Below, one piece after another: positions 1 through 50,592 of a stretch of 64,000 nt of DNA. This DNA comes from Akkermansia sp. Lineage in GTDB: Bacteria > Verrucomicrobiota > Verrucomicrobiia > Verrucomicrobiales > Akkermansiaceae. Made by a program: the position numbers and the translations under genes. Every line of letters begins with the position of its first letter. The stretch's first letter is position 1. The DNA lies in assembly GCA_017415555.1 (NCBI GenBank), contig JAFQGF010000020.1:1-64000 (forward strand), written 5' to 3'. The notes under the pieces were generated by a model. It saw nothing but the letters and a program-made list of their open reading frames with translations. It was not told where the DNA came from and made no database searches.

Positions 1-750
1 ATATAAGAGCATACATGCAAAGCCCCCTGATTTGCACCAGGGGGATCTATTTGCAAAAAACGGCTGATGATTTTCGCTATCCTTTGATATAGGTATGCTC
101 TACTTTTGGGAGCTTACCTATTTTGGACAGCTATGGCGCGAGGTACAGAAAGCACTCCTAAAGCGCGTATTTACGCTGGGGCATTTCCGTGCGCCCGTCT
201 CCGTTAAAGCTTGGCCGAGAGAAGACGACACGGCATTATGCCACCCCACCATCCGGTGGGGTTCAGTTTGTTTTTTTGCGCTATTCCCACGGTTTGGGGC
301 TTCGAGTCTTCGCTTTCTTCGCCCACACAGGTCGTCCGCTAGCGCGGCTGCACCATGGGCTATTTTATGCCGCCTCGCCATGCGGCGAGGCTCGCAAATT
401 CCGCTCGCTATGCTCGCCCGCCCAATTTCCGTTTATCGAAAAAACAGAGTTTTCAGAGGCGCCCAATTCGTAGAACGTTCGGCGGGCGAATTCGGAAGGA
501 CGAATTCCGAGGGACGAAGTAATAGTTCAGCGGGCTGGCGCCCGCGAGCCTTCAGGCGAGCCGCGGGCTCGCGGAATTTTCACTTCGTCCCTCGCTGTCG
601 TACTTCCACATACCGGTGCGTGTTTTTTTATTTCTGCCTTGTGAGCATATATGTGAGTTGAATTGTAAGGTGTTTATGTTCAGGTGTGGATGGGGATTTT
701 GAAAAAGGGGAGTACATTTCCGAAGAGCTGGGCTAGGCTATGAATGAAAT
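1..750. other. Intergenic region with hairpins and structured repeats
   Basis: No convincing gene is seen. A hairpin with five C/G pairs lies at 23-44 (CCCCCTG then CAGGGGG) without a following T-run, and may end a gene to the left. From about 231 to 598 the stretch is occupied by the composite repeat described separately. Open frames crossing it (for example 95-661) follow the GC-rich hairpins and have no family resemblance, so they are not called as genes. A weak -10 (TAGGCT, 734-739) precedes the next gene. Confidence 0.6.
231..598 (+). repeat. Composite structured repeat, copy A
   Basis: It contains the hairpin CCCCACC-atcc-GGTGGGG at 244-261, a T-rich stretch, a CCCACGG...CCATGGGC pairing unit ending near 360, the linker TATTTTATGCC, and the hairpin GCCTCGCC-atgc-GGCGAGGC at 372-391. 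A GC-rich end follows, bounded by a perfect 13-bp inverted repeat (508-520 against 582-594, CGAGGGACGAAGT). The same modules in the same order occur in copies B (8134-8413) and C (50186-50530). Unlike those, only half of the 86-bp inverted core is present. No transposase is nearby. Whether it acts as DNA or RNA is unknown. Confidence 0.8.
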
Positions 751-8041: not shown

Positions 8042-8133
8042 GGCAATTCAAGCGGAGCATCGCACCGGCCATACGTGTCCCAAAGATTGGCCCGGTAAAT
8101 GAGGATTTGTAGAGGTACGAGTTACGAATTCCG

Positions 8134-8413
8134 AGGGACGAAGTGAAAATTCCGCGAGCCGCAGGCTCGCCTGACTTAGAGCCCGCACAAGTGCGGGCGG
8201 CATATAGTAGCCTCGGGTGAAGTGAGCAACGCGAACGAAACCCGTGGATGATACGGAAAAACAAGCCGAACCCCACCGGATGGTGGGGTGGCATAAAGCA
8301 ATGTAATAAATTAATGCGTGGGCATCATGCCACCCCTCCTTGCGTCGGGGTTCTAATTTATTTTCTCTCTTTCCCACGGTTCCGCCGCTGACGCGGCTGC
8401 ACCGTGGGCCACG
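8134..8413 (-). repeat. Composite structured repeat, copy B
   Basis: The centre (8268-8353) is an 86-bp unit beginning GAACCCCACCGG and ending TCGGGGTTC. It is the reverse complement of the core of copy C, with about 75 of 86 positions equal by eye. Both sides carry an arm: leftwards CCACGGGTTTCGTTCGCG..CACCCGAGGC, the hairpin GCCCGCAC-tt-GTGCGGGC and a CGAGGGACGAAGTG edge (all read on the minus strand); rightwards CCCACGG..CCGTGGGCC. It fills most of the 595-base gap between recJ and rpmI. No gene is seen in it. Confidence 0.85.
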
Positions 8414-48126: not shown

Positions 48127-49482
48127 TTAGTTTCCTCTCCTGCGCACAAAAATGACAGCGGCGGCAATCCAGATGAGCAGAGCAGCGGTTGAAATGCCCA
48201 GCATAATGGCCCAGCCCAGTTTGTAGAGCAGGGTGAGAGCCAGAGCTGTCCACAGACCTCCGCCCATAATGGGCTCGTGCAGCAACTGCTTGTAACCGAA
48301 TGCCTGTGTGGCGCAAGTCTTGCTCTCCGGGTCGGCGGCACGCAACAGCAGCAGACCCGTGGCTGTCACTCCCAGCGATTGTCCGAACTCCGCAATGGCA
48401 CACTCAAACCAGGATTCGCGGAAGAGGCGGCGTGCCACCACAACTACCATGAAGAGCGAGAGCAGCGTGCCCAGCACGATGAGTACCAGCAGCCCCACCC
48501 AGTTGTCCAGCACCACCTGCACTTTGATGGTGGCCATGGCGGACACTACCAGGAAATCCAGCGCAGCACCGGAGACTCGCTGCATCTGGCCGTGGTCGAT
48601 GAGCTGGTGCACCCGCACGCGCTGCGCCAGTTTCTGCATCAGCAAGCCGCCTATCATGCAGAAGGGGAAGAGCGGGAAGCCTTTCATGAGGGTCACCACT
48701 CCATCGGAGCTGCATGCGGCCTCCAGCTCCTGCAGGCCGTATCGCAGGCCGAAGCCGGCCAGAATAGCAATGCCTACCAGTGAAATGTGCCAGGCCAGTG
48801 AGTCGATGGAATCGCAATACACTGTCTGCACGCCAGCAGCGGGCTGTTCTTCTTTGCCGTAAATTCCTTTCTGCTGCAGTTTGTCCTGTTCCTCGAAGCG
48901 GCGGATATTCTGTATGTAGCCTTTGCGGGCTGCCCAGTTGATGAGGACAATGCCCAGAATGACTGCCAGTAGCATGCCGGCCGTGGCCATGGTGTAGCCC
49001 AGCGCGATTCCGTCTTCCCAACCAAAGGATTCGAAACTCTCTGCCATGCCGCTCACTGTGCCGTGTCCTCCCTGGAACCCGATTTCCAGCAGGTTGCCAA
49101 AACCCTCATTCACGCCAAAGAAAGGAAGCAGCAGGAACCCCACCGCTGCAAAGCCAATGACATACTGCCCCCAGGCCAGAATCTGCCCGAAACACAGCTG
49201 CGGAAAGGCAACTCGCACTACCTTGCCCAGCGGAGGAGTCACGACTCCCAGGAATAGCGTGGCAAATACAACGTTAATCATGAAACCAGGTAGTTTGCCA
49301 ATAGCACTCACCACATCTGCCGGAATAAGACCGGGAAAACACTGGAAAATCAGCAGTCCGATGAACCCGCCAATTACGGAGCTAGGCAGGTAACAGCGCT
49401 GCAACAGCGGAATGAGAGTGCGCAGCACCTTACCGAGTACCAGCAGAATAGATAACAGGCAAAATACGAAAATAGCGGTCAT
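48127..49482 (-). CDS. gltS: Sodium/glutamate symporter
   Basis: A 451-residue membrane carrier with about 10-12 helices. The GltS signature FQGGHGTVSGM follows LPFFGVNEGFG, and inverted-repeat topology is suggested by similar helix blocks on both sides of a hydrophilic loop (about 195-225, EEQDKLQQKGIYGKEE). It imports glutamate with sodium. The ATG at 49482 is preceded by a promoter with a leader of about 50 bases, unlike its divergent neighbour. Confidence 0.93.
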   Translation of the reverse strand: MTAIFVFCLLSILLVLGKVLRTLIPLLQRCYLPSSVIGGFIGLLIFQCFPGLIPADVVSAIGKLPGFMINVVFATLFLGVVTPPLGKVVRVAFPQLCFGQILAWGQYVIGFAAVGFLLLPFFGVNEGFGNLLEIGFQGGHGTVSGMAESFESFGWEDGIALGYTMATAGMLLAVILGIVLINWAARKGYIQNIRRFEEQDKLQQKGIYGKEEQPAAGVQTVYCDSIDSLAWHISLVGIAILAGFGLRYGLQELEAACSSDGVVTLMKGFPLFPFCMIGGLLMQKLAQRVRVHQLIDHGQMQRVSGAALDFLVVSAMATIKVQVVLDNWVGLLVLIVLGTLLSLFMVVVVARRLFRESWFECAIAEFGQSLGVTATGLLLLRAADPESKTCATQAFGYKQLLHEPIMGGGLWTALALTLLYKLGWAIMLGISTAALLIWIAAAVIFVRRRGN

Positions 49483-50185: not shown

Positions 50186-50530
50186 GCGAGAAATTGAAAT
50201 TTGGCGAGCCGCAGGCGAGCGGAATTTGTGAGCCTCGCCGTATGGCGAGGCGGCATATGGTAGCCCAGGGCTTCAGCCCTGGGGAGGAGATGTTTAAATA
50301 TTGGAACCCCGACGAAAGGAGGGGTGGCATAATGCCCAGGCTTCAATATGTAGCATCGCTTTGTGCCACCCCACCATCCGGTGGGGTTCTCTTTGTTTTT
50401 TTTGCCTTTCCCACGGGTTTCGTTCGCGTTGCTCACTCCACCCGTGGCTATTTTATGCCGCCTCGCCGTTCGGCGAGGCTCTTAATTAGGCTCGCCTGAC
50501 GGGTTCGCACCCCCCCCGCCCAATTCCAAT
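50186..50530 (+). repeat. Composite structured repeat, copy C
   Basis: The 86-bp inverted core is at 50304-50389 (GAACCCCGACG ... GGTGGGGTTC). The left arm, read outward on the minus strand, has CCCAGGGC-tgaa-GCCCTGGG, TATGCC, GCCTCGCC-atac-GGCGAGGC. The right arm has a T-run, CCCACGGG...CCCGTGGC, TATTTTATGCC, GCCTCGCC-gttc-GGCGAGGC, AGGCTCGCCTGAC. It is the most complete copy, with two full arms, and fills the gap to tRNA-Ser. Confidence 0.85.
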
Positions 50531-50592
50531 TTCTTGCGCATCTGCGTGTAAAGTCCGTTGTCCGAGGATTTGTGTCATGTTGCAGAAAAATC

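Follow-up and report, generated by a model that had tools for sequence, protein, structure and literature searches.

Between a symporter gene (48127-49482, minus strand) and a tRNA (50652) of the window, by which we mean the whole 64,000-nucleotide stretch of DNA analysed here, lies an intergenic repeat rich in hairpins, which raises the question of what it is and how its copies arose. A first-pass annotation of the sequence had described a repeat family whose stems change in sequence while pairing is retained, and had considered it to be either a non-autonomous mobile element or a structured RNA. Our analysis indicates that the feature is very probably a non-autonomous miniature transposable element in which two ends of a Y1 tyrosine (HuH) transposase element stand in inverted orientation. 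Both the mobile element and the selection on hairpin structure were supported, together with an association with a transposase across three phyla.

The complete gene-less element, an inverted pair of ends with outer modules and no assigned strand, was located at 50187-50536, close to the boundaries given previously (50186-50530), and every stem described there exists. It is approximately 0.35 kb in size with a core of 252 bp, and the repeat starts with AAATTGAAATT at 50191 and ends with AATTCCAATTT at 50532. The left half, on the plus strand, begins with an outer module, CGAG AAATTGAAATTTGGCGAGCCGCAGGCGAGCGGAATTTGT... (50187-50231), which is common to most copies of this genome. It is followed by hairpin a, GCCTCGCC-GTAT-GGCGAGGC (50232-50251), and by the 12-nt linker GGCATATGGTAG (50252-50263), which is composed of the tag GGCATA and of GTAG (50260-50263) at the 5' foot of hairpin b. 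Hairpin b, CCCAGGGC-TTCA-GCCCTGGG (50264-50283), is REP-like; after about 22 nt, hairpin c, ACCCC...GGGGT (50306-50325), was recognised from the sequence and the alignment and is imperfect in the window copy. The tag GGCATAATGCC (50326-50336) then repeats the tag that follows hairpin a. The second half has the identical plan, inverted on the minus strand: hairpin c' (50368-50387), hairpin b' (50411-50447), the linker CTATTTTATGCC (50448-50459; ATAG and tag on the minus strand), hairpin a' (50460-50479), and the right outer module terminating in AATTCCAATTTCTTG (50480-50536). An end can be written as [hairpin a]-tag-NTAG-[hairpin b]-~22 nt-[hairpin c]-tag, and the predicted fold of the whole strand is one long stem from which the b hairpins protrude. 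What had been taken for a GGGGTTC edge of the element is really the foot of hairpin c.

Of the other places proposed in the window, the one at 8134 is a second copy (8181-8408, no strand assigned; blast match C30:8170-8357) with hairpin a at 8181-8198, GTAG at 8207-8210, b at 8211-8247, c at 8270-8289, c' at 8332-8351, and b' at 8373-8408, but it lacks the right-hand outer hairpin a'. The place at 231 holds one end alone (232-391, minus strand), comprising the tag (232-242), c' (243-262), b' with a longer loop (286-359), the linker (360-371), and a' (372-391). Near 1428, where a solo end had been proposed, we found a single hairpin, GAACCCGCACAAGTGCGGGTTC (1481-1502, no strand assigned), and sequence resembling the outer module; GTAG and hairpins b and c are absent nearby, and the place is neither a copy nor a full end. 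The ACTTCGTCCC / GGGACGAAGT end that had been counted as part of the element belongs to a separate repeat, GAATTCCGAGGGACGAAGT, which adjoins the elements outside the a-b-c end (502-520, 582-591, and 8126-8144) and is also present near the transposase locus L001 described below.

The genome, which is akin to ruminant-gut MAGs labelled Akkermansia, was searched as an assembly of 2.0 Mb in 65 contigs that is 79% complete, and copy counts were taken from sequence searches. With a 266-base query, the core of the window repeat was found at 42 places at E <= 4e-22, far above chance. Many of these places are at contig ends, because repeats cause contigs to end. When 36 arms were aligned on hairpin a, the common outer module began at CGAY|AAATTGAAATT; beyond the boundary CGAY|AAATTG the information was close to zero and the flanks were unrelated in most copies. 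From the copies with differing flanks we infer that the inverted pair spread as a unit. The boundary was sharp, and no target-site duplication, by which a MITE of a TIR transposon would be recognised, was seen on inspecting the flanks of the 36 arms. An exact empty site was not found: the nearest relative with a syntenic locus (G579) is without the element, and its flanks are too diverged for the junction to be read. Copies of this genome carry extra outer modules, and the inverted repeat in most other genera ends at hairpin a without an outer module.

A Pfam PF01797 search revealed three Y1 genes in this genome. At L001, a 145-aa tnpA (1486-1920) is enclosed by two a-b-c ends in inverted orientation, one at 1207-1329 and the other at 1928-2049. 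The Y1 transposase that the first-pass annotation had proposed to look for elsewhere in the genome was found with these exact ends on both flanks, and since the same inverted ends flank this gene, the window copies are considered to be gene-less derivatives. Comparison with L001 indicated that the central spacer of the window element (50337-50357, no strand assigned) corresponds to the position of the gene in a tnpA-bearing element. Furthermore, the inner side of the single end at 232-391 is non-random, because window 136-295 is 97.5% identical to DNA upstream of the L001 tnpA (L001 1425-1266). The end thus runs into a relic of the tnpA upstream region (136-231, minus strand), so that a transposase-bearing copy was formerly present at this site. 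The second tnpA, at L002, encodes a protein 61% identical to that of L001 and has its own three-hairpin end with the tag GACAGAA, for which 41 matches were obtained within the same genome.

The transposase is of the Y1 type, as had been suggested, and is assigned to TnpA subclass 1.2, not to the classic RAYT group (class 2). Subclass 1.2 (Quentin et al. 2018, PMC6006769) was judged by DH[IV]H, WQ, and Y---Q--HH in a protein of approximately 148 aa, and the proteins at our loci, mostly 145-155 aa in length, match it through DH[IVL]H, WQ, and Y---Q--HH. In 31 proteins (~145-155 aa), D54 H55 x H57, W95 Q96, and Y115---Q119--H122(H123) were invariant or almost so; in the L001 TnpA, the central residue of the HuH motif is L. 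The PF01797 match scored 79.5 bits, and a PDB profile search gave the TnpA proteins of ISDra2 and IS608 as the nearest solved relatives. The cognate proteins carry Y---Q--HH instead of the Y---NP of class 2, and they scored 28.5 against NF047646, for which the cut-off is 80. In plasmid searches, matches were confined to Persicobacter and Bernardetia megaplasmids and to enterobacterial IS200.

Compensatory change was examined with 16 same-genus ends aligned without structure. Pairing cells amounted to 84.2%, compared with 73.6% in shuffles, and the covariation score was 0.286 compared with 0.115; 0/500 shuffles reached either value. This bears out the earlier observation that the stem sequences vary while pairing is kept. 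Sliding the partner by 1-3 columns lowered pairing to 35-52%. Helix 1 (hairpin a) was 96.3% paired and six pairs of helix 2 (hairpin b) were changed on both sides; helix c was weaker (67.5% paired), partly from misalignment. G-U pairs occupied 4 of approximately 299 paired cells, and this scarcity fits a feature that is used on either DNA strand.

Such compensatory changes would also be expected of an RNA, and a part of the element has indeed been catalogued as one. Rfam RF01687 (Acido-Lenti-1), whose entry describes an sRNA from Acidobacteria and Lentisphaerae, matched the window at 50248-50283 on the minus strand with 37.5 bits against a gathering threshold of 37, and other loci scored higher. 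Its consensus consists of an 8-bp hairpin, a 12-nt stretch that begins with CUA, and a hairpin of 5 bp, and it corresponds to a-linker-b in reverse complement; the family represents the a+b half of ends of this kind. At 18 tnpA loci, 27 of the 28 Rfam matches were to RF01687, and at many loci the two flanks each had one, mirrored in orientation. Co-occurrence was examined in 241 Verrucomicrobiota, 199 Planctomycetota, and 198 Bacteroidota genomes, with p-values that overstate the certainty because species of one phylum are not independent. RF01687 was present in 47/54 Verrucomicrobiota genomes with TnpA 1.2 and in 18/187 without it (odds ratio 63, p 1.6e-27), leaving as exceptions 7 of the 54 without RF01687 and the 18 with RF01687 alone. 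The corresponding figures were 38/40 and 13/159 in Planctomycetota (odds ratio 213, p 3e-27), and 28/91 and 13/107 in Bacteroidota, a modest association (odds ratio 3.2, p 0.0015). By genus, RF01687 is widespread, occurring in 52/132 Verrucomicrobiota genera.

The motif also forms gene-less pairs outside the genome studied here. Among the 150 Planctomycetota matches listed, 13 of 16 neighbouring pairs were arranged minus-then-plus at 135-210 bp, the same arrangement as around tnpA, and all 11 doublets that were read, among the same 150, were gene-less with the order a-b-c-c'-b'-a'. Two REP-like units in inverted orientation that form one hairpin, by which a REPIN is recognised, are seen in the window copy and in these 13 pairs. 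The flanks of the doublets read were shared by some copies and not by others, and one genome (G763) contains a tnpA-bearing locus whose ends match gene-less doublets. Another Planctomycetota genome, G603, has 16 RF01687 matches, mostly in inverted doublets; TnpA 1.2 was not found in it, the gene being either lost or within an assembly gap. Head-to-tail RF01687 arrays with spacings of about 68 and 124 bp were also observed (L094 2077-2739, which adjoins a TnpA 1.2 gene, and G321:C1:1701174-1701838).

These results bear on the possibility that the feature is a structured non-coding RNA or a transcript-end element, multi-copy by chance and selected for its RNA hairpins. The curation of RF01687 as an sRNA, the score of the window copy, the compensatory changes, and a 2026 paper in which Acido-Lenti-1 was suggested as a possible regulator of Tannerella proteases (PMC13298647) speak for it. 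However, the motif stands in mirror orientation around tnpA genes and in inverted doublets, its presence tracks one transposase subclass, and the G-U content is below the tolerance expected of an RNA read from one strand; we therefore regard this explanation as improbable. Of the two readings offered at first, the mobile element has held and the structured RNA is the weaker half, because the motif is symmetric and inverted around a transposase gene and has the same arrangement in gene-less copies. These findings suggest that the sequences called Acido-Lenti-1 RNA are transposon ends. We did not find a tie of Acido-Lenti-1 to transposases in the open-licence papers that were searched. Next to the TnpA 1.2 gene at L144, positions 2108-2210 gave a sub-threshold match to Rfam RF01705 Flavo-1 (33.7 bits, cut-off 42), and other Rfam RNAs may be transposon ends too.

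The third Y1 gene of the genome, at L003 (G000:C24, 1309-2295), is RAYT-like and of class 2; it follows an hsdS-like gene in a restriction-modification region and scored 56 bits against NF047646, under the cut-off of 80. No a-b-c hairpins and no obvious REP hairpins were found in the flanks of L003 that were examined, and it was rejected as the motor of the repeats. Its presence, together with the GTAG foot of hairpin b and the inverted doublets, could nevertheless be read as a classic REP/REPIN system moved by a class 2 RAYT, with TnpA 1.2 incidental. This is less probable still, since both subclass 1.2 genes of the genome carry the three-hairpin ends that the examined L003 flanks lack, and since other Y1 genes were no significant predictor of RF01687 among genomes without TnpA 1.2 (p 0.10).

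In the 2018 study, subclass 1.2 was found mainly in Cyanobacteria and Bacteroidetes, without REPs and generally without IS-type ends or IS properties (PMC6006769). Inverted repeats beating all 50 shuffles were detected at 32/35 loci of a set mostly from the same taxonomic family, at 33/38 loci of a Verrucomicrobiota and Planctomycetota set, and at 16/29 Bacteroidota loci. Four loci entered both of the first-named sets under separate names; with these counted once, there are 98 distinct loci of subclass 1.2 in the three phyla, and at 78 of them the gene is flanked by inverted ends, mostly with the three-hairpin plan. The reported lack of REP-like flanking repeats is not upheld. Recognisable ends were not found at a few of the 98 loci, and four Bacteroidota loci (L132, L133, L135, and L136) combine hairpin a with a conserved GGTAG(A) but show no clear hairpin b. 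Statistics across genomes are to be read with the non-independence of genomes within one phylum in mind. The best partner of an upstream end was its own downstream end at 27/35 loci (median score 78 versus 16), and end similarity followed TnpA identity (Mantel 0.42, 0/999). In 93 parsed ends, a few of which are still misparsed (e.g., L001 upstream), the modal linker was 12 nt, as in the window copy, and the median b-c spacer was about 22 nt. Within one end, the tag after hairpin a matched that after hairpin c beyond expectation (0/2000 permutations). The base before AG was T in 51, C in 23, and A in 16 ends, the window copy having GTAG; AG itself is no evidence because the parser demanded it before hairpin b. 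That the three hairpins are instead a host repeat preferred by tnpA as an insertion target is the least credible explanation: although copies of this genome sit in repeat-rich islands with other palindromes and REP-targeting IS elements exist (ISPpu9, PMC8450116), the two sides of a given tnpA resemble one another far more than they resemble the flanks of other loci, end similarity tracks TnpA identity, and a target split by insertion should leave half-sites, not the two full inverted ends seen.

Taken together, these elements are best read as REPIN-like miniatures that TnpA 1.2 would mobilise in trans and in single-stranded form. Work on IS608 and RAYT is the model for four proposed points: that TnpA recognises the ends, that NTAG and the tag have functional roles, that the route is single-stranded, and that movement occurs in trans. 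Three hairpins would fold in single-stranded DNA, and TnpA, presumably a dimer like its IS608 and ISDra2 relatives, would bind hairpin b together with the NTAG at its foot, in the way that RAYT binds REP. Hairpins a and c and the shared tag may set family specificity; the tag is a candidate specificity code because it varies between families and agrees within one end. The tyrosine of TnpA would then nick the strand, which would be moved or copied to a new site, gene-less copies being served in trans. The copies may in addition act as terminators or stabilisers.

In broader terms, TnpA 1.2 is probably the motor of widespread, three-hairpin, tag-coded single-strand transposons and their REPIN-like miniatures in at least three phyla, and Acido-Lenti-1 would then be terminal DNA and no RNA gene family. 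We found no ends or flanking repeats for subclass 1.2 in the open-licence papers that were searched; the ends and gene-less copies for this subclass, and its wide occurrence in Verrucomicrobiota and Planctomycetota, go beyond the 2018 account. They point to a possible DNA substrate for transposases of a subclass so far without one, and offer an account of a 16-year-old orphan Rfam family and a caution against reading Acido-Lenti-1 matches as regulatory RNAs, with an alternative reading for cases such as the Tannerella proteases. The hairpin and tag differences between families, with agreement within a family, constitute natural enzyme-substrate pairs for learning how Y1 transposases read hairpins, and the system is a counterpart of REP/RAYT in phyla with few REPs described.

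Among known systems, REPIN/RAYT (the REPtron; PMC3116915, PMC2817692) shares inverted hairpin doublets with a GTAG-like foot, dispersed between genes, and identical ends around a Y1 transposase gene with which they co-evolve. However, its transposase is of class 2 (Y---NP) instead of subclass 1.2 (Y---Q--HH), its foot is strictly GT[AG]G whereas NTAG, NCAG, or NAAG occurs here, and the present ends have three hairpins each and a repeated family-specific tag. IS200/IS605 elements (IS608 and ISDra2) belong to the same Y1 HuH family, with the same catalytic residues and hairpins near both ends, but those hairpins are small and subterminal in contrast to the long inverted three-hairpin repeats described here; in addition, the L001 tnpA has no adjoining tnpB-sized gene, and non-autonomous copies exceed tnpA copies. 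The TIRtron/TIRYT system (Di Nocera et al. 2013, PMC3733652) likewise has a Y1 gene between long inverted repeats, some of which are dispersed, whereas its proteins are of class 2 (mostly 2.1) with a C-terminal helix-turn-helix, and many of its repeats share GGGGWSAS in place of the a-NTAG-b-c plan found here.
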